From positions 1-64,000 of IMG/VR virus record IMGVR_UViG_3300035704_000007: a DNA stretch of 64,000 bases, one strand, 5' to 3'. This document shows, one piece after another, positions 5,503 through 63,912 of the stretch. A program made the position numbers and the translations under genes. The notes beneath the pieces were generated by a model. It saw nothing but the letters and a program-made list of their open reading frames with translations. It searched no databases and was not told where the DNA came from. The first letter of the stretch is position 1, and every line of letters starts with the position of its first letter. Source of the DNA: a virus.

Positions 5503-6290
5503 GGCGTCATTGCCTCACCAATGAAAAATGTGTAAGCAGGAGGAATCGCCTGAGCTAATTCGTCGCGGGTCATCCACGTAATATTCATTGCTCGCCGCCA
5601 GGCCGCAACCCCATCCTCGGGACGGCGGCGGATCAATTGCCCGTTAGTCCGGTCGCGAAGTCCGCTGTTACCCCCGCCCGCAACAGTCACGAAGCCGTCG
5701 CGGCCCACGCGCGCTCCTCTGGCCTGGCTTCGCTCTCCGTGTCCGTGAACGCTGACAAACCCTTCTTTGCCGATAACGGCGCCCCGCTCGGCCAGCGGTC
5801 TCCAGCAGCCTCCGGAGACGACGGTGCAGAACCCGTCGCTCCCCGCCTGATAATCGCCGTGCGCCAGATGAGGCGGCGCCAGGACCAGGCGGCTCGTCTC
5901 AAACAGCCGGTGCCGGAACACCTTGAGCCCGAACATCAACCCGCAGAGCATGACCGGGTTCTCCAGCGGCGCCCCGACGACGTTCTCGATCACCCAGGGG
6001 CAGCCGCTCGCCCGCAGCAGCGCCCGCACCGGCGCGACGAGATCGGGATACGTAAGACGCGCGGCGGCAGGCGTCGCGGCCGAAAACTTCTGACAGGGCG
6101 GTGAGCAGTGGATGAGATCGAAGTCGCCCGGCCTGACGGCCGCCAGAAACTCCAGGGCGTCCCCCTGCTGAAAACAGAATGGATAATTTCGCTGCGGGGC
6201 ATGATCGATGCCCAATATGTCAGTGAACCCGGCGCGATGGTACCCTACGGCGGCCCCTCCCGCGCCTGAAAAGCAATCAAGCAGTCTCAT
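5499..6290 (-). CDS. C5-cytosine DNA methyltransferase
   Basis: 263 aa. It transfers a methyl group from SAM to carbon 5 of cytosine in DNA. Visible motifs: I (LLDCFSGAGGAAVGY), IV with the catalytic cysteine (CSPPCQKF, C66), VI (WVIENV) and VIII-like (FRHRLFE). It is somewhat short, with a small target-recognition region. No restriction partner is adjacent, so self-protection against host restriction is likely. It is co-transcribed with the downstream small genes through 4-base overlaps. Confidence 0.92.
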   Translation of the reverse strand: MRLLDCFSGAGGAAVGYHRAGFTDILGIDHAPQRNYPFCFQQGDALEFLAAVRPGDFDLIHCSPPCQKFSAATPAAARLTYPDLVAPVRALLRASGCPWVIENVVGAPLENPVMLCGLMFGLKVFRHRLFETSRLVLAPPHLAHGDYQAGSDGFCTVVSGGCWRPLAERGAVIGKEGFVSVHGHGERSQARGARVGRDGFVTVAGGGNSGLRDRTNGQLIRRRPEDGVAAWRRAMNITWMTRDELAQAIPPAYTFFIGEAMTP

Positions 6291-7060
6291 AGCGCCACTC
6301 CCTCCCCCAAAAACCTCCGCAGGCGCCGGATGGCCTGTCGGTGATACTGGTGCGAGCGCGACTCCGAGCGGTCCAGCCGGCCGGCAATGGCTTTCAGCGT
6401 CAGCCCCTCCTCGTAATAGGCCCGAATGACCTCCCGCTCCGTCGCCGGCAGCCAGCGCACCGCCTGCCAGAGGATCTCGCTCTCGTTGTCCAAGAGGGCG
6501 ATCGCGTCGGGGCCGGGTGCCGGATCGGCCACCTGCTCGCCGACCCGCAAGGGGTCGAAGTCGGCATCCGGGTCGGCCTGGTTGATGAGCGCGTCGAGCG
6601 AGACCACGCTGCGACCCTTCGCCTGCCGCTGCAAAGCCTGGAGCGCCTCCAGGTCGAGCCCGAGGTGGGCGGCCGTCTCTGCGTCCTCGGGTTCCCTCCC
6701 GAGCGCGTGTACGAGGCTGTCAGCGGCTTGAGCGAGCACTTTCTGCTTCGTCCGCACCGAGCGGGGCGTCCAATCCTCCGCCCGTAAATATTCGAGCATC
6801 GCGCCCCGGATCATCGAGATACAAAAACTGCTGAACTTGACGCCCCGCGCCGGCTCGAACCTGTCGACCGCCCGGACGACGGCGATCATCCCTTCGGTCT
6901 GCAGGTCCTCCGGGTCGATGCGGACCGGCACGCGCGGGATCACGCGCGGGATCGTCAGGCGGACCAGGGGCAGGTGCGCCTCGATCAGCGTGGTGCGCGC
7001 CTGCTGGCAGTCGTGCGTTTTCAGGGCGTCCCAGAGGGGAGCGGTGTCAGCCGGTGTCAT
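6287..7060 (-). CDS. Phage sigma factor, sigma-70 family with regions 2, 3 and 4
   Basis: 257 aa from ATG 7060 (GAGG upstream; longer frames run into the previous gene). Region 2 lies at about residues 24-96 (DLQTEGMIAVVRAVDRFEP, VKFSSFCISMIRGAMLEYLR), region 3 at ~98-150 and region 4 at ~195-250 (LPATEREVIRAYYEEGLTLK, then AIAGRLDRSESRSHQYH). The arrangement resembles FliA/SigF/WhiG-type alternative sigma factors and lacks region 1.1. It would redirect host RNA polymerase to phage genes, perhaps the late virion operon. It overlaps the methyltransferase start by 4 bases. Confidence 0.88.
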   Translation of the reverse strand: MTPADTAPLWDALKTHDCQQARTTLIEAHLPLVRLTIPRVIPRVPVRIDPEDLQTEGMIAVVRAVDRFEPARGVKFSSFCISMIRGAMLEYLRAEDWTPRSVRTKQKVLAQAADSLVHALGREPEDAETAAHLGLDLEALQALQRQAKGRSVVSLDALINQADPDADFDPLRVGEQVADPAPGPDAIALLDNESEILWQAVRWLPATEREVIRAYYEEGLTLKAIAGRLDRSESRSHQYHRQAIRRLRRFLGEGVAL

Positions 7061-7292
7061 GATCCTCGAATTGCGAACACCATCTTCTGACGGTCGAAAG
7101 CGCGGCGCCATATTGCCGCGCTAGCTGCGCTTGCGTGCCTTCACCGAGCAGCCAGCGCAGGGCGACCTCCTGGCGCGTCTCCGCGGAGCGGGGCGGGGCC
7201 CAGTGCCGCGCCGCCCCCCCGGCCCGTCCCGCTTCCCGGTGCGAAAGGCCGCGCCTCCCTTTCGTCTGCCAGCGCCGGCCACCCTGCTGCAT
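7047..7292 (-). CDS. Small HTH protein upstream of the sigma gene
   Basis: 81 aa. The C-terminal half (LRWLLGEGTQAQLARQYGAA, then LSTVRRWCSQFE) is a homeodomain/transposase-like helix-turn-helix. The N-terminus is Arg/Gly-rich. Its 3' end overlaps the sigma gene by 14 bases. It could be a small transcription or packaging (TerS-like) DNA-binding protein; a TerS assignment is not supported by its position. Confidence 0.6.
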   Translation of the reverse strand: MQQGGRRWQTKGRRGLSHREAGRAGGAARHWAPPRSAETRQEVALRWLLGEGTQAQLARQYGAALSTVRRWCSQFEDHDTG

Positions 7293-7510
7293 CAGTCAGC
7301 CTCCTGCAGCGCCGCTTCCAGCGCTTTGATCGCTCGGCCGAGAACCGCGTCATTCTCGGCAACCTGTGCCTCCGTCATGTCGCGCCGCCGCCCGAAATCG
7401 CTGATAACATCCGCCATCCGCAGCCAGCCGAGCCATTCGAGCGCGTCCTCGGCGGCGTCCCGCAGCGCCTGGTCCGGACCGGTCCCAATGGCAGCTTCCG
7501 TCTCGGTCAT
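7292..7510 (-). CDS. Small helical protein, unknown function
   Basis: 72 aa. ATG 7510 was chosen because GGAGG lies 6 bases upstream. It is acidic and helical, with two tryptophans (LEWLGWLRMADVI) and an Ala-rich C-terminus. It shares one base with the next gene's start. No motif is recognised. Confidence 0.55.
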   Translation of the reverse strand: MTETEAAIGTGPDQALRDAAEDALEWLGWLRMADVISDFGRRRDMTEAQVAENDAVLGRAIKALEAALQEAD

Positions 7511-10226: not shown

Positions 10227-10844
10227 TTAGGCTTCGGCAGCCGCTTTCTCGCCGGCCATTCGGCCTTTCCCATCGGCCACGCACAAGACCACCCCGCCGA
10301 ACCTCTGGCGAGCGGCCGCCGCCACGCTCGCCGGCACCTCAAGCCCGCACTCCGCGCAGAACTGCGGCTCGGCCCCGTGCCCGGAGGCGGCGGCGTCACC
10401 GGGTGAGTCCGTGGTCCGCGCAACTCGTTCCTCGCGGTAGGTGTCGGCCTTGCCTTCGTGGCGGGCGAGGGGGCGAGCCGGCGACTCGTCGGCGTCAGGG
10501 CCGAGTTCATCGACCGAAGCCATCGCTACGTTTGTTGCAAAGCGTAGCATACGAGCGATCGCTCTAGTTTCCGCGTGACGGAGAAAAGCGCCCCGCATCT
10601 GGCTGTTGCTGGGGTTTGCATCTCCCACGGCGGAAAAGCACGCCATGCCGGCCTCGGTACAGAAAGTCCCCGTGGCCTGCACGACCCAGGACTGCTCCTT
10701 GGGATCACAGAACTCGGAGAGTATCTGCGTCTCGATCCCGTGCAGCCCCCGGTTGTGTCCGAGATCGAGTAGCCCGGCAAGTAGCACGAACTCCTTCGGG
10801 CCGTTTTTGGTGTTCAACTTGATGACAAAACGAGGATCGATCAC
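10227..10844 (-). CDS. Probable ssDNA-annealing/recombination protein
   Basis: 205 aa. FVLLAGLLDLGHNRGL, then a GDANPSN block, then RHAETRAIARMLRFATNVAM resembles a phage protein family with a conserved AETRA.AR.LR helix. That helix recalls Rad52/RedB-like annealing proteins; this is my inference, not an established match. A variable linker and a C-terminal CAEC...C motif follow. Its position among replication genes and upstream of RepA supports a DNA-metabolism role. Confidence 0.5.
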   Translation of the reverse strand: MIDPRFVIKLNTKNGPKEFVLLAGLLDLGHNRGLHGIETQILSEFCDPKEQSWVVQATGTFCTEAGMACFSAVGDANPSNSQMRGAFLRHAETRAIARMLRFATNVAMASVDELGPDADESPARPLARHEGKADTYREERVARTTDSPGDAAASGHGAEPQFCAECGLEVPASVAAAARQRFGGVVLCVADGKGRMAGEKAAAEA

Positions 10845-14859: not shown

Positions 14860-14895
14860 TACAAACGTCTATACTGGGTGTGCGATTACCCCAGT
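14847..14895 (+). promoter_or_regulatory. Possible rightward promoter and operator of the integration module
   Basis: TATACT at 14870-14875 with a weak -35 (ATGCAA, 14847-14852) at 17 bases. It is followed by the inverted repeat ACTGGG/CCCAGT (14873-14878/14890-14895), a possible operator. The downstream gene is the XRE regulator at 14922. Confidence 0.4.
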
Positions 14896-14921
14896 CGTGG
14901 ATGGGAGGAAGAAGGGCTGTA

Positions 14922-15290
14922 ATGTCGCTGGAGTTCAAGGTCGAGTTAGGGCGGCGGTTGCGGACAGCCCGCGAGCGCGCCGGTCTTTCCGTCAAGGACA
15001 TGGCGCAAACCCTGGAGGTGGCGCTCAACACCGTCTACGCCTATGAGAACGGCCAGAACCAGGCTCCGACCGATGTGGTAGTGGCTTATGCTCGCGCGAC
15101 GGGTGAGAGCATGGGGCGGTTGGGCGGCCTCGAGCCGGACCCCAAGGAAACGATCAACTTGATTGCTGCGGCTGCGGAAGAGGTGGTAGCGCCGCCGCGC
15201 GATCTGTCCGGCCTTTCCGACCGCACTCTTTCCGCTTTGATCGTCAAGGCCGGCATCGAAGTCCATAAGCGGTTGCGCCGGCCCGAGTGA
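14922..15290 (+). CDS. XRE-family repressor-like regulator next to the integrase
   Basis: 122 aa from ATG 14922 (GGGAGGAAGAAGGG upstream). N-terminal XRE helix-turn-helix: RLRTARERAGLSVKDMAQTL, ALNTVYAYENGQNQAPTD. The C-terminal ~50 residues are helical (LSDRTLSALIVKAGIEVHKR) and may mediate dimerisation. It lies one base before the recombinase gene, divergent from the leftward early operon: a classic immunity-repressor position. Confidence 0.8.
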   Translation: MSLEFKVELGRRLRTARERAGLSVKDMAQTLEVALNTVYAYENGQNQAPTDVVVAYARATGESMGRLGGLEPDPKETINLIAAAAEEVVAPPRDLSGLSDRTLSALIVKAGIEVHKRLRRPE

Positions 15291-15291
15291 C

Positions 15292-16821
15292 GTGGAGGAA
15301 CGCGCCTGGCTGCACGTACGCAAGAGTCGTCATCTGGCCGATCCTGACGACCCGAAGCTCCTCGCCGCCCACAAGGAAACTCTCCTCCGTCTTGCCTTAG
15401 CCGATGGCGTCCCCATTCCCCCCGAGCACATCATCGCCGAAGTCGAGTCCGGCGAATTCCTCAGTCAACGTTCCGCCTTCCGCGCCTGGTTGGAAGAGAT
15501 CGAGCGCCTCCCCGAGGGCTCCGGCGGCATCCTCTATACCATCGCCGTGGATCGCCTCAGTCGCGGCCCGCTCTCCGAGCGCGCCCGCATTCAGGAGGCC
15601 CTCCAGCGCGCCGCCATCCTCATCCGCACTCCCGCCGGCACGACCGACCTCTCCGACCCGGATGAGGAATTGCTGGCCGAGGTGCGCGGCTCGCTCGCGC
15701 GGCAGGAGCTGCGCCGCTTCAAGGCCCGCCTGGCCCTGAAGCGCGTCGACAAGCTGCGCCGCGGCGAGATCCTCACCGGCGGCGTCCCTTACGGGTATCG
15801 GTGGAGCAAGGACACGGGCCAGCCCGAGCCGCGGCCGGACCAGTTTCCCATTCTGCAAGCCTGGTGCCGGGAGGTGCTCACCACCTCGGCCCAGCGGTTG
15901 AGCCGCCGCTACGGGGTCTCCGGCTCCATCGTCCTGCGCGCCCTCCACAGCCCGGTCCTTTGCGGCTGGAGCGCCCGGCGTTATGTCATGGGCGAGAACA
16001 GCGCCGGCAAGCGGGTCGCCCGCCTCCTCCCCCGCTCGCAGTGGGTATGGGCCGAGCAGCCGGGCGGCTGGGCCCCGGCCTGCACGCGGGCGGAGTGGGA
16101 GGCCATTCAGGCGGTGCTGGCGGCGCGGGACAGTCGCCCGGAATGGACGCGCGCGACGGAAGATGGCTGGTGTCGGGACGTGCTGCAGTTTCAGGGTGCG
16201 CCGGCCGGCGCCTGGGTGCGCCTGGAGACCGGCGGCGGAGGTCCGGTCTATGCCGGCGTCGATCCGGTCACGCGCAGGCGGTTCGCCTACGTGCCGCGCG
16301 AACAGGTCCACCGGGCGGCGACCGCGGCGCTGGGCCCTCTGATCGCCCGTCCTGACTTCCTGGCCGCAGTGGCGGCGGCGGTCCAGGAGCAGCAGCAGCA
16401 GGTCGCCGCGGCGCCGACCGCTCCCGATCTCCTGGCCCGGATCGCGGCGCTGCGAACGCAGTTGGAACGGGCCGTGCGCGACGGGCTGCAGGCCGCAGGT
16501 GAGGAGACCCGTCTGGCTCATCAGCGCGTTCAGCGGGAATTAGAGCAGGAGATCCAGTCCCTACGCCGCCAACTCGGCAGCGCGAACGGCGCCCGGACCG
16601 CCGATCTGGCGCCCCTCTTGCGCGAGGCCGCGGTCCTGCTCGGCGACTTCCCCGCCGGTTGGGAGACGCTCCCCGGCACCTTCAAGCGGGCCCTGGTGCG
16701 GGCGCTTCTGGTGGCCCTCCCCGTGGTCATCGAACCCGCCCCGGCCTACCATCCGCGCCGCCGGGAAGTCCTCGCTCCCGTCTGGCAGCCGTGGGTTCCG
16801 CAGTGGCTCGACACCTCGTAA
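15292..16821 (+). CDS. int: Large serine recombinase (phage integrase)
   Basis: 509 aa from GTG 15292. The resolvase domain has WLHVRKSR with the probable nucleophile S12, VESGEFLS, and YTIAVDRLSRG (D87, R88, R91). A recombinase domain follows (~150-280: RRGEILTGGVPYGYRW, RRYGVSGSIVLRALHSPVLC). A C-terminal coiled coil (~360-440) precedes the end. The usual cysteine zinc ribbon is not evident. It mediates attP x attB integration; attP is expected close by, either in the 38-base gap after its stop or upstream of the XRE gene. Confidence 0.88.
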   Translation: MEERAWLHVRKSRHLADPDDPKLLAAHKETLLRLALADGVPIPPEHIIAEVESGEFLSQRSAFRAWLEEIERLPEGSGGILYTIAVDRLSRGPLSERARIQEALQRAAILIRTPAGTTDLSDPDEELLAEVRGSLARQELRRFKARLALKRVDKLRRGEILTGGVPYGYRWSKDTGQPEPRPDQFPILQAWCREVLTTSAQRLSRRYGVSGSIVLRALHSPVLCGWSARRYVMGENSAGKRVARLLPRSQWVWAEQPGGWAPACTRAEWEAIQAVLAARDSRPEWTRATEDGWCRDVLQFQGAPAGAWVRLETGGGGPVYAGVDPVTRRRFAYVPREQVHRAATAALGPLIARPDFLAAVAAAVQEQQQQVAAAPTAPDLLARIAALRTQLERAVRDGLQAAGEETRLAHQRVQRELEQEIQSLRRQLGSANGARTADLAPLLREAAVLLGDFPAGWETLPGTFKRALVRALLVALPVVIEPAPAYHPRRREVLAPVWQPWVPQWLDTS

Positions 16822-16859: not shown

Positions 16860-17315
16860 TCAACGGCGGCGGCAGCCCATCAGCGGCAGATCGCCATTCC
16901 TCGCCACACGGCCAGAGATACCCTTGAGGGCGATGCGGTCCCCGGCGTGCAGCCGCAGCAGGGACGCTTCCCGCTGCGGGCAGAAATAGCAGGCGACATC
17001 GTGCAAGCCGTCCTCGCTGCCGATCAGGGTCACACAGGCCACGCCGTCCCGGTCCCGGTCCAGGCTGCGGATGATCCCGTTCATCCGGAGGATCTTGCCG
17101 CAGACGATGGCCTCGACCGCCAGCGCGTTGTTCTCCAGGCCACGCCCGACCTCGGCGGCTTGCAGAACGATGGGCAGTAGATGGGCAGCGCCTACTCGCC
17201 GGTCCTGCTCCTGGTGCCGCCGCGCCACGTCGGGGGAAAGCGACGCCGACGCCGGCGGCGTCAGGGCCGGTGCCAACAACCCGAGAACGATCCACCCCAT
17301 CAATGCTCGATTCAT
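16860..17315 (-). CDS. Secreted OB-fold (tRNA_anti-like) protein, accessory
   Basis: 151 aa. The N-terminal signal peptide ends near PPASA (residue ~24). The second half (GVACVTLIGSEDGLHDVACY, then LHAGDRIALKGISG) has the strand pattern of the small OB-fold tRNA_anti-like family. It would be exported to the envelope. An accessory lysogenic-conversion or superinfection-exclusion role is possible. It has its own ECF-like promoter at 17356-17381. Confidence 0.6.
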   Translation of the reverse strand: MNRALMGWIVLGLLAPALTPPASASLSPDVARRHQEQDRRVGAAHLLPIVLQAAEVGRGLENNALAVEAIVCGKILRMNGIIRSLDRDRDGVACVTLIGSEDGLHDVACYFCPQREASLLRLHAGDRIALKGISGRVARNGDLPLMGCRRR

Positions 17316-17355: not shown

Positions 17356-17381
17356 GACGCCGGCCTTCCACGCCTCGTTCC
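17356..17381 (-). promoter_or_regulatory. GGAAC-N17-CGTC promoter-like element
   Basis: On the minus strand: GGAAC at 17381-17377, 17 bases, CGTC at 17359-17356, ahead of the secreted-protein gene (start 17315). It lies in a ~47-base segment repeated nearly unchanged at 17641-17697. Confidence 0.6.
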
Positions 17382-17404
17382 CTACCGACCGGGTGATTAT
17401 CCGC

Positions 17405-17617
17405 TCATCCCCAGGCAGCGATTTCGCTTGAGAACCCCGTTATGTCTTCCGGCAGGGGCTCGACCTGAGATCCCGAGCTGCGGCGCCGCTCCAGCGCGTG
17501 CGCCAGGCAGAGCGGGACCCGGCGATAGCCCGCTTCCGAGGGAGTGATCCCCGGAACGCTCGCATCCACGATACAGCCGGTGTGCGTCGCCTCATTCGGG
17601 CAATATTCGCAGCGCAC
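17405..17617 (-). CDS. Small zinc-binding protein
   Basis: 70 aa from GTG 17617 with AAGGAG upstream. MRCEYCPNEATH and PLCLAHAL give a CxxC...CxxH metal site; the tail is acidic. A single gene under its own promoter-like element. Function unknown. Confidence 0.6.
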   Translation of the reverse strand: MRCEYCPNEATHTGCIVDASVPGITPSEAGYRRVPLCLAHALERRRSSGSQVEPLPEDITGFSSEIAAWG

Positions 17618-17640
17618 CTTCCTTCTCCTTTGCTCTCTTT

Positions 17641-17666
17641 GACGCCGGTCTTCCGCGCCTCGTTCC
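17641..17666 (-). promoter_or_regulatory. GGAAC-N17-CGTC promoter-like element
   Basis: On the minus strand: GGAAC at 17666-17662, 17 bases, CGTC at 17644-17641, 24 bases before the GTG start at 17617. Near-duplicate of the element at 17356, including the adjacent words GGTGATTATCCGCTCATCCC. Confidence 0.62.
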
Positions 17667-17790
17667 CCATCGAGCGGGTGATTATCCGCTCATCCCCTCG
17701 CGTTTGCTACCGGAAAACAGCGGAGGAGAGCGCCGTTGGAATGGCGAACTGCGGCTCATTGCCCCTAAAGCGACCAGGGAGGCGTTAAGT

Positions 17791-17952
17791 ATGCCCGTGG
17801 GCCAGTGCCCGAACTGCCGGAAGCTCTACTTGTGGGAGGCGCGCTGCCGGCATCAGCGGCGCTGCCGGGAGTGCCGGCGGCGGCTGGAGGCGGTCTCGCG
17901 TGAGGAGATGTTGGCGCGGGTGCGGGCGCTGCGAGAGGAGAAGGCGGCTTAG
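17791..17952 (+). CDS. Small zinc-ribbon protein
   Basis: 53 aa from ATG 17791 (GGGAGG eight bases upstream; the longer in-frame start lacks a site). Two Cys pairs (CPNCRKLYLW, CRHQRRCREC) give a compact zinc ribbon, then a basic helix. It stands alone on the plus strand and its stop overlaps the opposing gene's stop by 4 bases. Confidence 0.6.
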   Translation: MPVGQCPNCRKLYLWEARCRHQRRCRECRRRLEAVSREEMLARVRALREEKAA

Positions 17953-18167
17953 GAGGAAGGAGCCTCGCTGTTGTCTGCCGCCGGCGCTGCGGGAGACTCG
18001 CCGGGACGCTCCCGGTCTACCAGGGTCGTCGAGCGCCAGTCATCCGCACGCAGTTCGACGATGGTGGCGAGGAAACGGCCGCGCGTAAAGCGGACGACGC
18101 GCTTCCCTTCCTCGTAAAGAGCCCACCCGTTGCTAAGGTAACACTCGCGCAACTCCTGCTCGGTCAC
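17949..18167 (-). CDS. Small protein, unknown function
   Basis: 72 aa from GTG 18167 (GGAGAGG upstream). LRECYLSNGWALYEEGKRVV followed by a beta-like segment. It shares an almost identical leader (CGTCTGATTGA...) with the next two genes, so the three are probably regulated alike. Confidence 0.55.
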   Translation of the reverse strand: MTEQELRECYLSNGWALYEEGKRVVRFTRGRFLATIVELRADDWRSTTLVDRERPGESPAAPAADNSEAPSS

Positions 18168-18221
18168 GTCCTCTCCTTCTCGCTTGCTTCTCTGCTCACC
18201 AATCAATCAGACGGCGGGCGA

Positions 18222-18560
18222 TTATTCGCTGTCCATGTCCACGATCGCCGGGTTCAGCGCGATAGCGAGCGCCTCCCGCACGTAATCATAACGGCTGGCG
18301 GCAACGCCGAGATGCGAGCCCGAGAGCACCAATTCTTGTTCGGCGCCGGAGAAAAGCACGCGCCAGAGTTCGCCATTGTTGGGCGCCAGCGCGATGAGGA
18401 CCGGCTTCAGGTGCAGCCGCACGCCCTCCAGCGCCCGCCGCGCCTCCTCCTGCGCGTCGCCGCGCTGTTTCGGCGCCCGCTCGCGCGCCCGCTCGATCAG
18501 CGCCGCCGCGCTCGCCAGGGAACGCGTTATCTGCTCGCGGTCGAGGATCTCTCGCTCCAT
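18222..18560 (-). CDS. Helical protein, unknown function
   Basis: 112 aa from ATG 18560 with AAGGAGGAAGC upstream. The N-terminal half is a long charged helix; the C-terminus is mixed. Its leader repeats CGTCTGATTGACAGG, but a matching GGAAC at 17 bases is not present here. Confidence 0.55.
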   Translation of the reverse strand: MEREILDREQITRSLASAAALIERARERAPKQRGDAQEEARRALEGVRLHLKPVLIALAPNNGELWRVLFSGAEQELVLSGSHLGVAASRYDYVREALAIALNPAIVDMDSE

Positions 18561-18620
18561 CCTTGCTTCCTCCTTCTCGCTTGATTCTCTGCTCACCTGT
18601 CAATCAGACGACTGGCGGGG

Positions 18621-18956
18621 CTAGTCCACAGCGGCGACGTTGGCCTCCCACCGCTCGACGGCCGCTCGCAGCGTGCTGCCCACCCCAATGGGCGCAAACC
18701 GCTCATAGTCCAGGCGCTCGCCAATGGCCGGCTGGTAATCGAGGCCCGGCAGGAGCGCCCAATTGCCGTTGTGCGTCAGCACGGCGCGGATCTGCAGCGG
18801 TTGATCGTCCCAGTTGATCGTTTGCACGAGGCGCTCGGCGACGATGACATGGACCGCCGCTTCTTCGCTGCAGCGGCCCTGGTAGTCCAACGTCTCGGCC
18901 CGTGTCGGCTCGCGGTGGACGCTCGCCATCAGCCCCTCTATCGTCAGTTCTTCCAT
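18621..18956 (-). CDS. Small protein, unknown function
   Basis: 111 aa. The second of two adjacent ATGs was chosen (18956), given GAGAAGGAG upstream. Alternating beta-like segments (VHVIVAERLVQTINWDDQPL, RAVLTHNGNWALLPG). No family recognised. A perfect GGAAC-N17-CGTC element precedes it. Confidence 0.55.
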   Translation of the reverse strand: MEELTIEGLMASVHREPTRAETLDYQGRCSEEAAVHVIVAERLVQTINWDDQPLQIRAVLTHNGNWALLPGLDYQPAIGERLDYERFAPIGVGSTLRAAVERWEANVAAVD

Positions 18957-18999
18957 CATCTTCTCCTTCTCGCTTGCTTCTCTTATTACCAATCAATCA

Positions 19000-19025
19000 G
19001 ACGGCTGGCTGGGCGACGGTGTTCC
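19000..19025 (-). promoter_or_regulatory. GGAAC-N17-CGTC promoter-like element
   Basis: On the minus strand: GGAAC at 19025-19021, 17 bases, CGTC at 19003-19000, then TGATTGATTGG. It heads the 18956 gene. Confidence 0.6.
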
Positions 19026-19042
19026 TTGTATTTCCTCAAGGA

Positions 19043-19861
19043 TTAGTTCTCTGCCTTCCGTCTGCGGTCCTGTATCTGCCGGTCCCGGTCAACATCCCAG
19101 GCGTCCAGATCCCGCTTGTAGACGAGCCGTGCGGCCTTCTCATCGCCGGCCCTCAGGAAAGGCAGGTGCCCGGCCTCGATGCGCTGATAGACTGCCTGGA
19201 CGCTGACGCCCTTATATTTAGCGGCATTGCGGATCGAGAATAGCTCTTCGTTCTTCAACTCGCGTGGCTTCTTCGCTGCTGGCATTCGCTTCCGTTCACT
19301 CACTGGCTTGGGTTCACTGATCCTGACCTGTTTAGGCTCTCTGATCTTGACTTGATTGCCCGTCGCTAACATGTTGCGCCTCCTTGTCTCCAACCCCTTA
19401 GCGGTCGCGGCAGGAGACCTGGGCCGCCGCATTTTGGCTTTTGACTCCTCCGTATGCTTCTTTCCTTTTCGGAATGCGGACAGCTTTGCTTTAGCTTGTT
19501 CCGTCAGGGTTTGTCCCTGCCGCGCGGCGGCGATCCTCGCCCGCGTCTCATCAGCGTGCATGAAACCCAGCGACCCCTCTCCTCCTGCTGTCAGATTGGT
19601 CAGCGGGGCTCCTCTATCGCGATAATGTTTGATCCAAAACTGCTCTCTCTGCAGAACCTCATCTGTCTCTTCGAGAATGGCCAGCACCGGTTCTAAGCCC
19701 AATCCAAACAGTACGCGTAGCCAGCATGATAGGTGCAGCCTGCTGCCCCGTGCGGCGGCGTGATAATGGTCTGAAAGCCGCTCATGGCCTCCTCTGTTGG
19801 TTTGTCCGATGTACCGAGTATCGCCGGTCCTGGGGTCGAGTAGAGCATAGACGATCCCCAT
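19043..19861 (-). CDS. GIY-YIG homing endonuclease with NUMOD and HTH modules
   Basis: 272 aa. The N-terminal GIY-YIG nuclease begins GIVYALLDPRTGDTRYIGQT, with downstream R and E-containing helices. In the middle are NUMOD3-like repeats (HADETRARIAAARQG, then HTEESKAKMRR). The C-terminal helix-turn-helix (IRNAAKYKGVSVQAVYQRIE, AGHLPFLRAG) is of excisionase type. A selfish phage endonuclease of the seg type. No split gene is visible next to it. Confidence 0.88.
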   Translation of the reverse strand: MGIVYALLDPRTGDTRYIGQTNRGGHERLSDHYHAAARGSRLHLSCWLRVLFGLGLEPVLAILEETDEVLQREQFWIKHYRDRGAPLTNLTAGGEGSLGFMHADETRARIAAARQGQTLTEQAKAKLSAFRKGKKHTEESKAKMRRPRSPAATAKGLETRRRNMLATGNQVKIREPKQVRISEPKPVSERKRMPAAKKPRELKNEELFSIRNAAKYKGVSVQAVYQRIEAGHLPFLRAGDEKAARLVYKRDLDAWDVDRDRQIQDRRRKAEN

Positions 19862-20205
19862 CTCTTACCTCCTCCTCCTTTCTCGTCGGTTCCTTCTTCT
19901 CGTTGAAATAGACGAACGTGCCAAGGAAGAAGTTTCCTCTTCCTTGGCTCTTGACCTTCCTCGCCCTAAACCGCTTGTAAAGCGACGTTAATCCGGTTCG
20001 GGAGGCTCTTAACGTTAGAGTCGTGAACGCTGCAACAAAGTTGCTCTTAAAGGCGGTAAGTCTTACCGGCTCAGTCTGAGACAATCGTTGAATATCGTCT
20101 ACGGCTAGCTACTGTTACTCAGACTGAGACTCTGGCGGACAAATGGAGCAACCTAGCCACCGTAAGCTGAGAAACAGAAGACTGCTAGTCGTTTAAGAAA
20201 AACAA
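19862..20205. other. 344-base regulatory gap with palindromes
   Basis: No credible gene. It holds a 10-bp hairpin (19921-19930/19938-19947) and the perfect palindrome CGGTAAG-T-CTTACCG (20054-20068). It also holds two copies of CTCAG(T/A)CTGAG at 20070-20080 and 20118-20128. It separates the leftward GIY-YIG gene from the rightward operon, so the palindromes are candidate operators. Confidence 0.45.
19911..19936 (-). promoter_or_regulatory. GAAAC-N17-CGTC element before the GIY-YIG gene
   Basis: On the minus strand: GAAAC at 19936-19932, 17 bases, CGTC at 19914-19911, followed by TATTTC. It matches the element family in spacing and -10-like word and lies 50 bases before the start at 19861. 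Confidence 0.45.
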
Positions 20206-20231
20206 GGAACACTTCCCTATCATCTAGCGTC
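20206..20231 (+). promoter_or_regulatory. GGAAC-N17-CGTC promoter-like element of the rightward operon
   Basis: GGAAC 20206-20210, 17 bases, CGTC 20228-20231, then TATAAG. It is the first of five such plus-strand elements in 20.2-23.3 kb. The segment downstream (GGAAGCAGACAAGAAGCCTC) recurs after the element at 21909. Confidence 0.65.
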
Positions 20232-20280
20232 TATAAGATGGAAGCAGACAAGAAGCCTCCCCCAACCCGAAGGAGAAGCC

Positions 20281-20700
20281 ATGAGCACCGCGACCCGCAC
20301 CCAGACTGACCGAGAGTTTGTGATCAGCCACGTCGATTACCGGCTGCCGGCGAGCGAGCAGAAGCTGACGGCCGCGCAGGAGCGCACGCTCTACTACATG
20401 GCAGACGGGTTCGGGAAGCGGACGCCAGCCGAGCTAGAGAGGATCAACGGCGGCTATGACTGGAGCCACTTCCGCGACAGCAGCGACGCGGCGTTCCGCG
20501 AGATGGCGGTAATGATCCGCTGCTGGCAGAATGACCGGGCCGTTGAAGCCATCCGCTTCCAAACGCTCGCTGAAGTGCGAGCCCAGGCAACCCGGAAGCT
20601 GCAGAACGCCCAGACCCGCTTTTATGACAACCCTTCGGCCGAGAACTTCATCCTCTGCCAGAAGGAAATGCTCGCTTACCAGGAACTGATCAAAGGCTGA
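20281..20700 (+). CDS. First gene of the rightward operon, unknown function
   Basis: 139 aa, with AAGGAGAAGCC before the ATG. Mainly helical, with a conserved-looking LTAAQERTLYYMADGFGKRT segment and a YDWSHFRDSSDAAF motif. No domain recognised. Probably expressed early or constitutively from the ECF-like element upstream. Confidence 0.65.
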   Translation: MSTATRTQTDREFVISHVDYRLPASEQKLTAAQERTLYYMADGFGKRTPAELERINGGYDWSHFRDSSDAAFREMAVMIRCWQNDRAVEAIRFQTLAEVRAQATRKLQNAQTRFYDNPSAENFILCQKEMLAYQELIKG

Positions 20701-20759
20701 AAACAGCCGCTAGAGAGTAAAGGGCGTCCCCCTTCCCTGACTTCAGGAGAACCGAAACG

Positions 20760-21860
20760 ATGACCGCTGCAATGATCCCGCTCGACGATCAGAAGACAGA
20801 AACCGAATCGCTCGCTGACCGCCGCCCGGCGCACCTTCCCTGGAACGACTGGGAAGCCCTGGAAGTGCAGCCGGTCGATCTGGCGCTCCTGCGCCTCCGC
20901 TGCCTGGACAACCAACTCGTCCTCGAGCTGCCCGGCGCCGCGCCTTACCGGGTCGCGCCTTCGTTTCTCGAAGGGCTCGGCGGCGAGACGACATTTCCGC
21001 CCGAGTTCGTCGGCAAGCTCTCACCGGGGCTGCAGGCGCAGATCCTCAACGAGCGGCTCGACCAGACCCCGCCCCGGATGATGAGCGTCGTCATGAGCGG
21101 CGAGACCTGCGTCCGCTTCCTGCCGGGCGACCGGGCGGTACTGGCTGCGCCCGCCGTCGCCGACCGGATCTATGACCGCCTCCTGACCCGCTACGGCGGC
21201 GTGGAGATTGACGAAGCAAAAGCGTACAACGGCGAGCACTGGCTGCGGCTGACGACCCCCTTCAAAAAGACCCTGACCGGAGAAGTCGTGACGGTCGAGC
21301 GCAGCCGGCACGAGATGCTCCAAGAGGACGTGCTGGCGCTCGGAGTGCAGGTGCGGCACGAGTTCCGCGAGGGGCTGCAAGTGGAACTGCACGTCAAGCG
21401 GCTGCTCTGCTACAACTCGGCGACGACGGCGGCGCACCGCTACTCCTGGCGGCTCAAAGAGGACCGGGGCGAAGCCGCGCAGCTCGCCTGGTTGGACGAC
21501 GTGCTGGAGCAGCTTCCCGACGAGTTTGACCGCTTCTTAGCCGGCGGGCGGCTGATGCAGGCCGAGAAGTTTGAAGGCCATCCCCGCACCGCCCTGCAGG
21601 CGGCCGCTAAAGCGATGAAGCTGCCGAAGCGCCTGCTGCCGGGACTGTTCGCCGCCTTCGATCAGGAACCGGGCGACAACCACTGGGCCATCGAGAACGC
21701 TATCACGCGCATGGCCACGCACGGCGACAACCTCTCTCCGGCGCTGCGGCGGGAATTGTCGAGAACTGCCGGAGAGTGGTGCCTGGATTTTGAAATGGTG
21801 AACTGCCGGCTGCCGCGCCCGCTGGCCACCGCCGCAGGGGCGCAGATCCTGGCTGACTGA
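20760..21860 (+). CDS. DUF932-like phage/plasmid protein (tentative)
   Basis: 366 aa with ATG 20760 after TTCAGGAG. Mixed alpha/beta, with TPFKKTLTGEVVTVERSRHE, LLCYNSATTAAHRYSW and a C-terminal HWAIENAITRMATHGDN block. The last two recall the DUF932 (phage/plasmid-like) family, but I am not certain. It is the largest gene of the operon and is followed by a strong terminator. Function unknown. Confidence 0.55.
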   Translation: MTAAMIPLDDQKTETESLADRRPAHLPWNDWEALEVQPVDLALLRLRCLDNQLVLELPGAAPYRVAPSFLEGLGGETTFPPEFVGKLSPGLQAQILNERLDQTPPRMMSVVMSGETCVRFLPGDRAVLAAPAVADRIYDRLLTRYGGVEIDEAKAYNGEHWLRLTTPFKKTLTGEVVTVERSRHEMLQEDVLALGVQVRHEFREGLQVELHVKRLLCYNSATTAAHRYSWRLKEDRGEAAQLAWLDDVLEQLPDEFDRFLAGGRLMQAEKFEGHPRTALQAAAKAMKLPKRLLPGLFAAFDQEPGDNHWAIENAITRMATHGDNLSPALRRELSRTAGEWCLDFEMVNCRLPRPLATAAGAQILAD

Positions 21861-21869
21861 CCGAGAGCG

Positions 21870-21896
21870 AAAGCGGGGAGAAATCCTCCCCGCTTT
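21870..21896 (+). terminator. Hairpin terminator after the 21860 gene
   Basis: Stem AAAGCGGGGA/TCCCCGCTTT (21870-21879/21887-21896), 7-base loop, extended by GACCG/CGGTC further out. It ends in CTTTCCC rather than a long T-run. Confidence 0.7.
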
Positions 21897-21908
21897 CCCG
21901 GTCAGCAA

Positions 21909-21934
21909 GGAACAAAACGCCTTCTTGGTTGGTC
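21909..21934 (+). promoter_or_regulatory. GGAAC-N17-GGTC promoter-like element
   Basis: GGAAC 21909-21913, 17 bases, GGTC 21931-21934, then TATTAC. The spacer core ACGCCTTCTTGG resembles the spacers at 22762 and 42631. Confidence 0.6.
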
Positions 21935-21986
21935 TATTACATGGAAGCAGACAAGAAGCCTCCCCCCAGCCGGAAAGGAAACGACG

Positions 21987-22175
21987 GTGCACGCAAACCA
22001 GAAGATCCGGATCGCTGAAGAACTGGGCGCTCGGGCCTTCACTTCCGGCGCTTCCGCCATCCCCGCCCTCGACAAAGCCCTGATCGCGCTGTTCGAGGGG
22101 CTCGCAACCGGGGAAGCAGCCTCGATTATTACCGCATGGCAGCGCGGGTTCATCAACGCGCCGCTGCCTGAATAG
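21987..22175 (+). CDS. Small helical protein, unknown function
   Basis: 62 aa from GTG 21987 (AAAGGAAACGACG upstream). Ala-rich helices (ASAIPALDKALIALFEGLAT). No motif. Own promoter-like element and leader. Confidence 0.55.
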   Translation: MHANQKIRIAEELGARAFTSGASAIPALDKALIALFEGLATGEAASIITAWQRGFINAPLPE

Positions 22176-22184
22176 GCAGCGAGC

Positions 22185-22210
22185 GGAACAAGGCGCCCGT
22201 CCGCTTCGTC
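22185..22210 (+). promoter_or_regulatory. GGAAC-N17-CGTC promoter-like element
   Basis: GGAAC 22185-22189, 17 bases, CGTC 22207-22210, then CTACTAG. It precedes the 22248 gene by 37 bases. Confidence 0.62.
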
Positions 22211-22247
22211 CTACTAGTAAGCAACCGAGTAAGCAAGGAGAAACGAA

Positions 22248-22445
22248 ATGAAGCAGATCATCATCCACGAGCGGAAAGACGAGCAGGGATGGCACGCCTG
22301 GGTGGAGCAGGCGAAGGGCAAGCAGGTGTTTCGGCTCACTGATATCTGCGCCGGCGCCAGCCGGGCCGAGGCCGCTGGCAAGCTGCTCCTGGGCTATCCC
22401 GAGATAACGGGGCTCACCGTGGGAACGATCTACCTGGACCGCTGA
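22248..22445 (+). CDS. Small alpha/beta protein, unknown function
   Basis: 65 aa with AAGGAGAAACGAA before the ATG. MKQIIIHERKDEQGWHAWVE followed by a helix and a final strand; a compact beta-alpha-beta fold is likely (HicB-like in outline, not provable). Confidence 0.6.
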   Translation: MKQIIIHERKDEQGWHAWVEQAKGKQVFRLTDICAGASRAEAAGKLLLGYPEITGLTVGTIYLDR

Positions 22446-22452
22446 AGAAAGC

Positions 22453-22470
22453 GGGGCTGGCAAGAGCCCC
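22453..22470 (+). terminator. Short hairpin between 22445 and 22500 genes
   Basis: GGGGCT/AGCCCC (22453-22458/22465-22470) with a 6-base loop GGCAAG, then TTC. A near-copy occurs at 23542-23559. Weak terminator or attenuator. Confidence 0.45.
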
Positions 22471-22499
22471 TTCACTCAAACAAGCAAGGAGAAACGAAG

Positions 22500-22761
22500 A
22501 TGAAGCTGACTCTGGCGACCGACGCGCTCCCTTGCCGAAGCATATGCCGAGTGGAAGCGCCACGGACAGCAGCGAGGCGCTCGGATCGTGCGGACGCCCA
22601 CTGGGAGTTACCTCGTGGCCGAGAGCACCCGCGCCCCGGCACTGCAGCAGCGCGCTGGATGGCAGATCGTCTGGCCAACCTGCAAGCGGTGCAACGACCC
22701 CCACGATGACGAGATGCTGGAATACTGCGCTGATTGCCGCACCTTGGAACCCGGCTATTAA
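22500..22761 (+). pseudogene. Zinc-finger gene with an apparent +1 frameshift
   Basis: ATG 22500 has a textbook AAGGAGAAACGAAG site, but its frame degenerates after ~10 codons. From about 22531 a different frame (+1) reads cleanly to TAA 22759-22761: SLAEAYAEWKRHGQQ, then CKRCNDPHDDEM and YCADCRTLEPGY, a CxxC...CxxC zinc finger of ~76 residues. That frame has no good start. Joined, the protein would be ~86 aa. The shift point is the run CTCCCTTGCC at ~22527-22536. It may be a real indel, a sequencing error, or programmed +1 frameshifting. Confidence 0.6.
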
Positions 22762-22787
22762 GGAACAAAGCGCCTGGTTGCTTCGTC
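22762..22787 (+). promoter_or_regulatory. GGAAC-N17-CGTC promoter-like element
   Basis: GGAAC 22762-22766, 17 bases, CGTC 22784-22787, then TATCAG. It begins one base after the stop of the frameshifted gene and precedes the 22829 gene. Confidence 0.65.
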
Positions 22788-22828
22788 TATCAGATAGAAC
22801 TGAGCGATTGGAAAGTAAGGAGAGCAAG

Positions 22829-23062
22829 ATGAGCACCCGAACCGAGACCAAAGCCCAGAAAGAACTGATGCGGATGACGCGCTGCTTCGTGGAAACACCC
22901 ACCGACTACTGGAAGCAAGAAGTGCTGCGGGCGGTTGGCGCGGTCGAAGAGGAGGCCCGGCTGGCATCCCAGGAGCGCGAAGCCCGATACATCGCCGCCC
23001 AGGCTGCCGAGCCGCTCTGGTGGGATGACGCGAGTTATGCCGCCTATCAGGCGCGGTCATGA
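22829..23062 (+). CDS. Small helical protein, unknown function
   Basis: 77 aa, with TAAGGAGAGCAAG before the ATG. Charged helix (YWKQEVLRAVGAVEEEARLA) and a Trp-containing tail (LWWDDASYAAYQA). Stop overlaps the next start by 4 bases. No family. Confidence 0.6.
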   Translation: MSTRTETKAQKELMRMTRCFVETPTDYWKQEVLRAVGAVEEEARLASQEREARYIAAQAAEPLWWDDASYAAYQARS

Positions 23063-23244
23063 GCGAAGAACAGGAGCCGAAGGAGGGACAGCCACTCAAG
23101 GCGGCCCGCTTCACGGTTTGCCTCCCCTTCGCCGATTGGGTCAACGCGACGGCGCTGGCCCGACGCCTCCGCCGGGAACACTACTGGGTCGAGGTGTGGG
23201 AAGGCGACCGGCTCGTCTCCCGGCGCGAATGGGGAGCCGACTAG
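23059..23244 (+). CDS. Small alpha/beta protein, unknown function
   Basis: 61 aa. FTVCLPFADWVNATALARRL, then HYWVEVWEGDRLVSRREW: beta-alpha-beta, reminiscent of a small peptide-binding or regulatory domain. Translationally coupled to the upstream gene (ATGA). Confidence 0.6.
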   Translation: MSEEQEPKEGQPLKAARFTVCLPFADWVNATALARRLRREHYWVEVWEGDRLVSRREWGAD

Positions 23245-23245
23245 C

Positions 23246-23271
23246 GGAACAAAGCGCCTTCTCGGTTCGTC
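23246..23271 (+). promoter_or_regulatory. GGAAC-N17-CGTC promoter-like element
   Basis: GGAAC 23246-23250, 17 bases, CGTC 23268-23271, then ATAATAAG. Spacer AAAGCGCCTTCTCGGTT is nearly that of 22762. Confidence 0.65.
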
Positions 23272-23315
23272 ATAATAAGCAAGCAACCTAGTTCTTGTAA
23301 GTAAGGAGAAAGACA

Positions 23316-23537
23316 ATGCGGATGAGCGCCAGCGTTTACACTGTCATTCTTAACGGCCAGCGGTTGGCCGACCACGACAGCCGAGCGGCGGCCGAGGCCC
23401 AGGCGGCGGCGATCGGGGGCACGGTGCGGCTGCTGGACCGGCGGGCGGTGAAGCAGGAGGTCAAGCGGCCGGTGGGTTACTCGGTCAAGCTGAGTGGGCC
23501 GCGAACGGACGCTGAGGCGCTGGCTTTCTTTGTCTAG
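23316..23537 (+). CDS. Small alpha/beta protein, unknown function
   Basis: 73 aa with AAGGAGAAAGACA upstream. SVYTVILNGQRLADHDSRAA and a second strand-helix unit (YSVKLSGPRTDAEALAFFV): two similar halves. No family. Confidence 0.6.
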   Translation: MRMSASVYTVILNGQRLADHDSRAAAEAQAAAIGGTVRLLDRRAVKQEVKRPVGYSVKLSGPRTDAEALAFFV

Positions 23538-24563: not shown

Positions 24564-24961
24564 AACCGGGAGGCAACCCTGACAACCCGCAGGACTGGGA
24601 GGCGTTCGATTACGTGCAGTTTGCGGCGGACCAGGCCGCGAACGCGAGCAAACGTGAAACGCTCACCGACACCCTGACGAACGAGCCCGTTCAGCCCTTG
24701 ACGGTGCGCCGTCTCTCCTGGCAAGAGTTTTGGCACCGTCGCCCGACGAAGATCCATCTCGTTGCCCTCACCATGCGCGGCTGGGACCTGGCCGACCGGG
24801 CGCTCTGCGGTCAGGTGGTTAACCACGAGGAGGCCCGAGAAGACACCGGAACGGGGACGCACTGGGTCTGCAAGCGGTGCCTGATTGCCTATGCGAAGCG
24901 ACAACTGGCTGAGCCGTCGACAGCGCCGCTTGATGATCCCTTTCTCGCGGCTCCCCGCTAA
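24551..24961 (+). CDS. Last gene of the rightward operon, unknown function
   Basis: 136 aa. WQEFWHRRPTKIHLVALTMR and an ALCGQVV ... HWVCKRCLIA Cys cluster suggest a small zinc site. It converges with the sigma-like gene; the two stop codons overlap, and no terminator separates them. Confidence 0.6.
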   Translation: MQRLKPGGNPDNPQDWEAFDYVQFAADQAANASKRETLTDTLTNEPVQPLTVRRLSWQEFWHRRPTKIHLVALTMRGWDLADRALCGQVVNHEEAREDTGTGTHWVCKRCLIAYAKRQLAEPSTAPLDDPFLAAPR

Positions 24962-25620
24962 CGGGCCGGGGCTTGCCGCGCCACCGCCGTCTTCCGCCGG
25001 TGCCAGCTCTCCCGGTGCTGGCGCCGGACACAGATGCGGCAAGCCCGCTTGCCGTTGGGGCGGTGATAGGTATTCTCTTCCGTCAGCCGATGCCCCTGCG
25101 GGCAGCAGCCATCGGTGCCGCGCGGCTGGCTCTTCTGGCCCGCGCCGCGGGCGCGCTGCCGGACGCGCTGGAGGGCGTGGCGGACCGTCGATGCGGGGAT
25201 CCGCAATTGCTCGCTGGCGGCGGCGCTGGAGAGCCCGGCGCCATAGACGGCGGCGAGGCAGCGGCGCTCCAGCCGGCTGCTGCCGGCCCAGACCGCCGCC
25301 CAGAGCCGCTCCGCTTCCCACTGATCGAGTAAGGGCCCGGTCCAGTCGTCGCTGACCCCCTCCTGCTCCAACGGCTCTTCGCGCGCCCGCCAGCGGCGGG
25401 CCCGGCGCAGATAGTCGCGCGCGGCCCAGCGGGCCGCCCGCATCGCCCACTGGTCTCGCCCGCAGCCCGTCGCCTCGCTCCAGGTGGACAGGCTCTCCCA
25501 CATCCGCAGGTAGCCCTCGGCCAGCATATCGTCCGCCTCCGCCGGGAACGCCTGGAGATCCGGCCAAAGCGCGCTCCGTACCCGCCGCATCAGCCGGCGC
25601 ACTTCGGCCTCCTCGATCAT
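24958..25620 (-). CDS. ECF-like sigma protein with C-terminal zinc-finger/HNH-like module
   Basis: 220 aa from ATG 25620, overlapping the upstream stop by 4 bases. Residues ~25-80 read as sigma region 2 (AEADDMLAEGYLRMWESLST, AARDYLRRARRWR). Residues ~115-160 read as region 4 (LERRCLAAVYGAGLSSAAAS, then LRIPASTVRHALQRV). Residues 172-205 form CCPQGHRLTEENTY ... CRICVRRQHRE, the same zinc-finger block found in the HNH protein at 4204. A fusion of a group IV sigma-like core to a DNA-binding finger is unusual. It might recognise the GGAAC-type elements. Confidence 0.65.
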   Translation of the reverse strand: MIEEAEVRRLMRRVRSALWPDLQAFPAEADDMLAEGYLRMWESLSTWSEATGCGRDQWAMRAARWAARDYLRRARRWRAREEPLEQEGVSDDWTGPLLDQWEAERLWAAVWAGSSRLERRCLAAVYGAGLSSAAASEQLRIPASTVRHALQRVRQRARGAGQKSQPRGTDGCCPQGHRLTEENTYHRPNGKRACRICVRRQHRESWHRRKTAVARQAPAR

Positions 25621-32205: not shown

Positions 32206-32244
32206 CCATCGCCGCGCTTCGTCAACCAGATCCTGTCCGGTCAT
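32194..32244 (-). pseudogene. Displaced 5' end of an NlpC/P60 gene
   Basis: Starting at ATG 32244, which overlaps the upstream stop (ATGA), 17 codons read MTGQDLVDEARRWIGDP. They match the first residues of the intact NlpC/P60 protein (MTGQDLVDEARSWLGTP); about 38 of the first 50 bases agree by eye. The frame then runs into the CRISPR-like hairpins. It marks the original gene start before the island was inserted. Confidence 0.75.
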
Positions 32245-32738
32245 CTCCGGCCCCTGGCGCGCCGCACCGCCTGCCCCACCGCCGGCGCGGAGCGCCCCAG
32301 CGCCCGCGCGCACTCCGCCTGCGTCTCCTGCCGGTAGGCCAACCGCCGCAGAACCTGTCGCTGCAGCGGCGACAGCCCCGCCAGCAGCGCCTCTGCCTCC
32401 AGCCGGTCCAAGAGTGCCGCTTCAAACGACGGCGCGGCCGGCTCGAACGGCTCGGCCTCGTCGCCATCCTCCCTGCGACTCCCGATCTGCGAGAACGGGA
32501 TCGCCGCCGGCCGCGCCTCGCCCTGCCGGTACGCCTGCCCGAGCCAGCGGCGGAACCATTCCGTGGGCGCCCGCTCGGCGGCGAGCCACGCGCCGTGCAG
32601 GCCCGCGCGCTGGTAGCCACGCCACGCCTCCAGGTGGGCTTGGGATCTGATATCCTGCCATTCCGGGTGAGCACTCCAGCGCGGGCCGAGACAGGCCAGC
32701 ACCAGGTTCATGAGACGCGGCCCCGGATCCGCAGACAT
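32241..32738 (-). CDS. ECF-like sigma/region-4 protein
   Basis: 165 aa from ATG 32738 (TGATG overlap). WQDIRSQAHLEAWRGYQRAG resembles sigma region 2. LSPLQRQVLRRLAYRQETQA, then ECARALGRSAPAVGQAVRRA, is a clear region-4-type HTH. The linker is acidic. It lies within the tail cluster, just upstream of NlpC/P60. A second possible reader of the GGAAC-type elements; it could instead be a structural-region regulator. Confidence 0.6.
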   Translation of the reverse strand: MSADPGPRLMNLVLACLGPRWSAHPEWQDIRSQAHLEAWRGYQRAGLHGAWLAAERAPTEWFRRWLGQAYRQGEARPAAIPFSQIGSRREDGDEAEPFEPAAPSFEAALLDRLEAEALLAGLSPLQRQVLRRLAYRQETQAECARALGRSAPAVGQAVRRARGRR

Positions 32739-63329: not shown

Positions 63330-63385
63330 CCGCTCGCCTCCCCGCCCGCCGGCTCTTCGTGACACTCGCCGCAGTAATCCAGCAT
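63314..63385 (-). CDS. 23-aa Cys-containing peptide after terL
   Basis: ATG overlaps the terL stop (TGATG), and the frame ends inside the next gene's start region. CGECHEEPAGG could bind metal. Small but well placed. Confidence 0.35.
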   Translation of the reverse strand: MLDYCGECHEEPAGGEASGCGSR

Positions 63386-63912
63386 CACCAACCTCTCGCT
63401 TTCGCGTGCGCCACGATGCCGGCCAGAGGGTTGACCGGTTGCTCTGACAGCACCAGGAAAGCAGACGAACAGGCGTCAACAATGTCGTCATGGATGCCTG
63501 CTGACGGGAAGCTGCACATCTCGTCCACCAGCTTTTGGTTCCACGCTCCCTGAACAAGCAGCACGTTGCCTGCCTCCATCTGCGAAGCCAGCGGCCCGGC
63601 GCGCGTGATCTTGTCGCCGGTGGAGCGCCGCCCCGAGACGCGGTAGCCGGCGAGCATCGCCACGAGTTGCGCCACCTGGGCGACGCCGGCCGAGCCGGGC
63701 TCCTGTTCGATGACCACCTCCACGGCGCGGCCGTCCACTTGGGCCGTCTGCAGGATGATGTCATTCCTTGGACCAGGCGACCAGCGGCCGTGGACCAGAT
63801 CCTCTATGTAGAACTTCGTGCCATCGCGGGACATCTTGACGCCGGCACTCGCGTCTGCGTCCGGCGTTGCTGTGGCGGCGAGGTCCCAAAACCTTACTCG
63901 TCTGCAGGGCAT
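63385..63912 (-). CDS. terL: Terminase large subunit, C-terminal nuclease part
   Basis: 175 aa visible. RVRFWDLAATATPDADASAG is the start of the terminase RNase-H-like nuclease; VEVVIEQEPGSAGVAQVAQL, KITRAGPLASQMEAGNVLLV and the C-terminal HDDIVDACSSAFLVL complete it. The ATPase half is absent: the same frame has an in-frame TAG 15 bases before the ATG at 63912. The gene is therefore interrupted (intron, intein-less insertion or true split) rather than simply cut by the window edge. Confidence 0.82.
   Translation of the reverse strand: MPCRRVRFWDLAATATPDADASAGVKMSRDGTKFYIEDLVHGRWSPGPRNDIILQTAQVDGRAVEVVIEQEPGSAGVAQVAQLVAMLAGYRVSGRRSTGDKITRAGPLASQMEAGNVLLVQGAWNQKLVDEMCSFPSAGIHDDIVDACSSAFLVLSEQPVNPLAGIVAHAKARGW

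Follow-up and report, generated by a model that had tools for sequence, protein, structure and literature searches.

Phage morons are small, unrelated genes that carry their own promoter and are exchanged between related phages. A block of small genes in the virus genome IMGVR_UViG_3300035704_000007 (IMG/VR) resembles them in holding small, unrelated, exchanged genes with a candidate promoter of their own, but differs in that these promoters are of the extracytoplasmic function (ECF) form and are common to many genes. The record has 66,945 bases, of which bases 1-64,000 form the window, the whole stretch of DNA that was analysed. The phage is tailed and probably temperate, because the window encodes a serine integrase, a ParB-like protein and a helix-turn-helix (HTH) regulator besides terminase, portal, head and tail genes. 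We consider it likely that the block gathers small accessory genes of a presumably temperate phage, and that several of these genes have an ECF-type promoter of their own.

For sigma-E of E. coli and Salmonella, the promoter boxes are given as GGAACTT(TT), also as GGAACTTTT, and GTCAAA (PMC1804206), and the -35 box of RpoE is given as GGAACTT (PMC8103513). The -35 box of S. coelicolor sigma-E also fits GGAACTT, and its spacers are described as being 16-19 bp long, with 18 bp the commonest length (PMC10771440). As far as these descriptions go, the phage sites are alike in their GGAAC -35 box, a -10 box that contains GTC, a spacing of the 16-19 bp class and a short leader; they differ in being repeated eight times over 6 kb. 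The start-associated sequences of Cluster K mycobacteriophages, described as 13 bp long and located 3-7 bp from the start codon (PMC3203893), are likewise repeated, non-palindromic and found ahead of many small non-structural genes; unlike them, the element of this phage consists of two boxes and lies 23-52 nt from the start. A study of phage-encoded sigma factors (PMC9429907) is similar in dealing with phages that have sigma-like proteins of their own but differs in that these are sporulation sigmas. Searches of the literature, with most subscription journals outside their coverage, turned up no description of a phage with an ECF promoter family.

Seven exact matches to GGAAC-N17-CGTC occur in the window, together with a GGTC copy at 21909, just as an earlier note made from the letters alone had listed them on both strands. 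The count stands well above the shuffled control (mean 0.81, standard deviation 0.92, largest 4 of 100 shuffles), and the motif is absent from the 2,945 bases of the record that lie outside the window. When the distance between the boxes was varied from 8 to 29 bases over the full record, 7 matches were obtained at 17 bases and 0-5 at the other 21 spacings; the next-highest counts (5 at 29 bases and 4 at 23 bases) are in both cases scattered over the genome.

Rewritten without the variable base, the motif becomes GGAAC-N18-GTC, which has 10 matches in the whole record. Genes were called from open reading frames (ORFs) and ribosome-binding sites (RBS), and a start was counted as qualifying if an RBS led it and its ORF ran to at least 45 codons. 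Such a start follows at 23-52 nt in 8 of the 10 cases, which are exactly the eight listed sites, all of them in gaps between genes taken as real; the remaining two matches, at 3995(-) and 60712(-), are inside called genes. The earlier note had expected matches to lie before genes rather than inside them, and this proved correct. Its distance of 20-60 bases before the start has to be corrected to 23-52 nt from the -10 box. Among 4,000 random positions, 9.35% are likewise located before a qualifying start, which gives a binomial P of 2e-7. Some copies are not independent of one another; with the four spacer groups as units, 4 of 6 lie before starts (P 0.001). Spacings of 16, 17, 19 and 20 bases yield 5, 0, 1 and 1 matches, respectively, and none of these seven precedes a start.

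The block lies between the integrase (15-17 kb) and the tail operon, which is on the minus strand from 25 kb on; from about 20 kb, its genes read outward to either side. On the minus strand, the candidate promoter at 17356-17381 precedes the gene at 16860-17315 (40 nt to the start), the product of which is tRNA_anti-like, with a signal peptide recognized by eye. The site at 17641-17666 (-) precedes the gene at 17405-17617 (23 nt), and its spacer is identical to that of the 17356 site at 15 of 17 positions. The third minus-strand site, 19000-19025, lies 40 nt before the gene at 18621-18959, which is followed by two further minus-strand genes. On the plus strand, the site at 20206-20231, GGAAC-N17-CGTCTATA, is found 49 nt ahead of the gene at 20281-20700, with 20760-21860 following. 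The GGTC form at 21909-21934 (+) precedes 21987-22175 (52 nt), the site at 22185-22210 (+) precedes 22248-22445 (37 nt), and that at 23246-23271 (+) precedes 23316-23537 (44 nt). The site at 22762-22787 (+), which precedes 22829-23062 (41 nt), opens at the first base past the stop codon of 22588-22761. No protein similarity was found among the genes of the block, and terminator-like sites are not in excess (7, with 9.6 expected).

Viral scans with five queries (the 20281-20700 gene, the gene for a 366-residue protein, the integrase pair, a FliA-type sigma and a tail protein pair) returned one near relative, the same contig each time. This is IMGVR_UViG_3300025625_000040 (L015/G001), a fragment of 26,879 bases. 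It encodes the 366-residue protein at 79% identity and the integrase at 49%. In the same block of the relative, GGAAC-N18-GTCTAT is present at 7503(+) and 9709(+), each time ahead of a gene, GGAAC-N18-GTCTTA at 6836(-) ahead of a short reading frame, and a one-base-shorter form at 6015(-) ahead of a 164-codon ORF; no qualifying start lies downstream of the three other N18 matches. Among 18 block proteins searched, all but two of them (18621 and 23830) translated in the correct frame, counterparts in the relative were found for the 366-residue protein, for a homing-type endonuclease (44% over 117 residues) and for the first 15 residues of the 20281 gene product, and none for the others so searched. 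At 7440-7490 of the relative, the 20281-type gene breaks off after 16 codons; the promoter comes at once, with a new gene behind it, and it looks as if a cassette had taken the place of the old one. Because the relative has the pair before unrelated genes, and because its 20281-type gene is followed at once by promoter and new gene, the putative promoter type is kept while the genes change. This suggests that accessory genes come and go behind a common switch.

The endonuclease, of GIY-YIG/NUMOD3 type, is encoded at 19043-19861 (-) in the window and at 8930-9724 in the relative, and its position and orientation within the block differ between the two; the 9709 promoter of the relative overlaps the stop codon of this gene. 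The accessory block of the relative also contains, at 10258-10577, a tandem 15-base repeat that encodes a pentapeptide-repeat-like protein. At 79 loci of distant tail-protein relatives, there was no excess of the motif (37 N18 matches, 1 before a start). Genome scans for the host detected no relative of the 366-residue protein gene and one distant tail-protein match, in a Rickettsia endosymbiont bin, and a ThyX search against plasmids gave nothing informative.

The pair also emerges when no motif is given in advance. For 95 RBS-led ORFs, we took the 90 bases ahead of each and compared every two 4-base words that lie 10-24 bases apart there, with P values that serve for ranking only, as overlap between upstream regions is ignored. 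The top of 83,407 such dyads in this phage is GAAC-17-CGTC, found at 7 ORFs with 0.23 expected. After the 28 ORFs of the relative were added, GAAC-18-GTCT came out at the top of 105,991 dyads (7, with 0.15 expected), and GGAAC-18-GTCTA was found 5 times with 0.025 expected. With 5-base words and this phage alone, the pairs of a three-copy minus-strand leader (18.2-19.0 kb) outrank the GGAAC/GTC pair.

Spacer likeness, which the earlier note had considered a special feature of the family, did not hold up as such, as it is accounted for by local duplicates alone. The sites at 17356 and 17641 form one local spacer group and those at 21909, 22185, 22762 and 23246 another, and 7503 and 9709 form a group in the relative. 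Spacers agree at 9-15 of 17 positions within the local groups of the phage, and at 1-7 of 17 between relative and phage. Because the relative has GGAAC-N18-GTCTAT before unrelated genes with different spacers, the conserved unit, judged from these sequences, is the -35/-10 pair of ECF (RpoE-like) form and not the spacer, and spacer likeness is a probable mark of local duplication. Two other search patterns were rejected. A pattern with the conserved spacer matched 12 viral loci that appeared coding-like by eye and were without the leader of the phage sites, and these were attributed to chance; so was the second hit of a promoter-plus-leader pattern, which found the relative again and a contig (L100) where the match is inside a 542-codon ORF.

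Several leaders in the block have features of their own. Minus-strand genes have a common 51-base leader (GTCTGATTGATTGGT...AAGCGAGAAGGAG) at 18169-18219, 18566-18616 and 18959-19009 (-), and of these three genes the first alone has GGAAC 17 bases ahead of CGTC. At three sites (20239-20310 and 21942-22020 in the window, 9745-9790 in the relative), ATGGAAGCAGAC comes a few bases past the -10 box and opens a short frame overlapping the real gene start and reading MEADKKPPP... twice and MEADERQRKGETR in the relative. This may be a leaderless leader peptide, or possibly just a conserved transcript start. The search for an RNA element gave no Rfam match, and no unusual RNA fold was seen in seven of the eight leaders, the eighth (17617-17666) having a z of -1.79.

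A number of observations weigh against an ECF-type promoter family. The E. coli site upstream of rpoE is GGAAC-N18-TCTAA, so that the spacing in the phage (GGAAC-N19-TC) is one base above it, and GTC is followed by TA in just 3 of the 8 sites of this phage. Once a single mismatch is allowed, the excess is almost gone (32 matches, with 22.2 expected). Spacers are shared by duplication, which reduces the effective number of cases to about 4 in this phage and 2 in its relative. The minus-strand genes at 18222 and 17949 have the shared downstream leader without GGAAC. One near relative was found. Only 2 of its 6 GGAAC-N18-GTC matches lie before a qualifying start, and when the relative is taken alone the dyad is missing from the top matches.

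The family is nevertheless supported, as the earlier note had proposed, because the pair arises de novo, precedes genes and recurs in the relative with other spacers and other genes. As in ECF promoters, the two boxes have a fixed spacing, lie near starts and are aimed at them, and they are kept where the spacer varies, both between groups and between two phages, one of them the relative. From sequence, spacing, position and recurrence we infer promoter activity of the following kind. Several genes of the block would each be transcribed from their own promoter, made up of a -35 box GGAAC, 18 bases and a -10 box GTC(TA), and on either strand the sites point outward. Transcripts would begin a few bases past the -10 box, and a short leader would end in the ribosome-binding site, the start codon being 23-52 nt downstream of the -10 box. 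Promoter copies may have spread by local duplication, with turnover of the unrelated genes behind them.

As to the reader of these promoters, a host ECF sigma factor is the most likely candidate, with the balance about even, and the phage genes would then join a stress or envelope regulon of the host. Next, and appreciably less likely, comes an ECF-like protein of the phage encoded at 24958-25620 (-). In a tentative sub-case of the favoured ECF-promoter explanation, this protein would be a late product of the last part of the tail operon and would read the promoters as a private regulon. Somewhat more doubtful is the further idea that a phage ECF sigma commands such a regulon by means of a plug-in promoter, copied before each new gene, so that unrelated genes are exchanged under one switch. 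The protein adjoins the block and, with its sigma regions 2 and 4, exceeds the superfamily cut-off (TIGR02937 46.8 bits, cut-off 42.9; PF04542 27.6, cut-off 24); it also has a C-terminal HNH-associated tail (phrog_826); the query was started one codon upstream, at 25623. However, its region 4 is weak in Pfam (22.4 bits, cut-off 25.7), and no relative of it was found in the phage collection.

The phage encodes three sigma-like proteins, and the claim of the earlier note that two of them are ECF-like holds for 24958-25620. The protein encoded at 6287-7111 (-) contains regions 2, 3 and 4 and is of FliA/WhiG type, not ECF (TIGR02479 177 bits, cut-off 189.6; PDB FliA chains). The third, encoded in the tail operon at 32241-32738 (-), has region 4 (PF08281 30.0, cut-off 25.7), with no region 2 detected. 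Structure models of two ECF-like proteins are of low confidence (mean predicted local distance difference test scores, pLDDT, of 54 and 61). It is common, though not universal, for an ECF sigma gene to carry its own motif (autoregulation). Among all matches before starts in the phage, none is found ahead of any of the three sigma-like genes, and no region-2 or region-4 match was detected in the relative, which has the promoters, within the 26.9 kb known of this incomplete genome. Because of these two results we lean slightly towards a host ECF sigma, and the private regulon that the earlier note had suggested is weakly disfavoured.

It is improbable that the pair is a bipartite operator for a phage regulator, such as the HTH_31 protein encoded at 14880-15290, instead of a set of promoter boxes. 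The sites are repeated upstream of genes and an XRE-type regulator is nearby, as an operator would have it, but the pair is asymmetric, always aimed at a gene, fits ECF boxes and lies at a promoter-like distance of 23-52 nt from the start. Moreover, a sigma-70 scan of 14-26 kb found 4 candidate promoters (1.2 expected), none of which serves these genes; the match at 23272-23301 is on the opposite strand. A duplicated intergenic repeat without promoter function, e.g. a cassette border, or chance, is less probable still: spacer likeness does indicate duplication, but from group to group and from phage to phage just the two boxes stay the same, together with the distance that separates them, and shuffled sequences fall short of the observed count. 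Promoters of FliA (sigma-28) have the consensus TAAA-N15-GCCGATAA, which is unlike GGAAC/GTC, and although the phage encodes a complete group-3 sigma, the sites are very unlikely to be promoters of its own FliA/WhiG-type protein, as a consensus scan gave 5 matches with 2 mismatches and none at these sites.

Among the other features, the integrase is a serine recombinase encoded at 15292-16821 (+; PF00239, phrog_95 integrase), bordering the block. The gene for the 366-residue protein, 20760-21860 (+), is the block's one strongly shared gene and has a weak match to phrog_1362, of unknown function. The large terminase subunit is apparently split in the 66,945-base record (63385-64962), with an N-terminal part at 64123-64959 and, about 200 bases away, a C-terminal part at 63385-63912 that was identified by eye.

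The motif would provide a sequence handle for finding accessory-gene sets of this kind. If the ECF-type promoters are what they appear to be, they would explain how unrelated, newly acquired genes come under one control, since the promoter stays or is copied while the gene changes. The accessory genes of the phage would then be tied to a stress-type sigma factor, be it that of the host or the phage's own.

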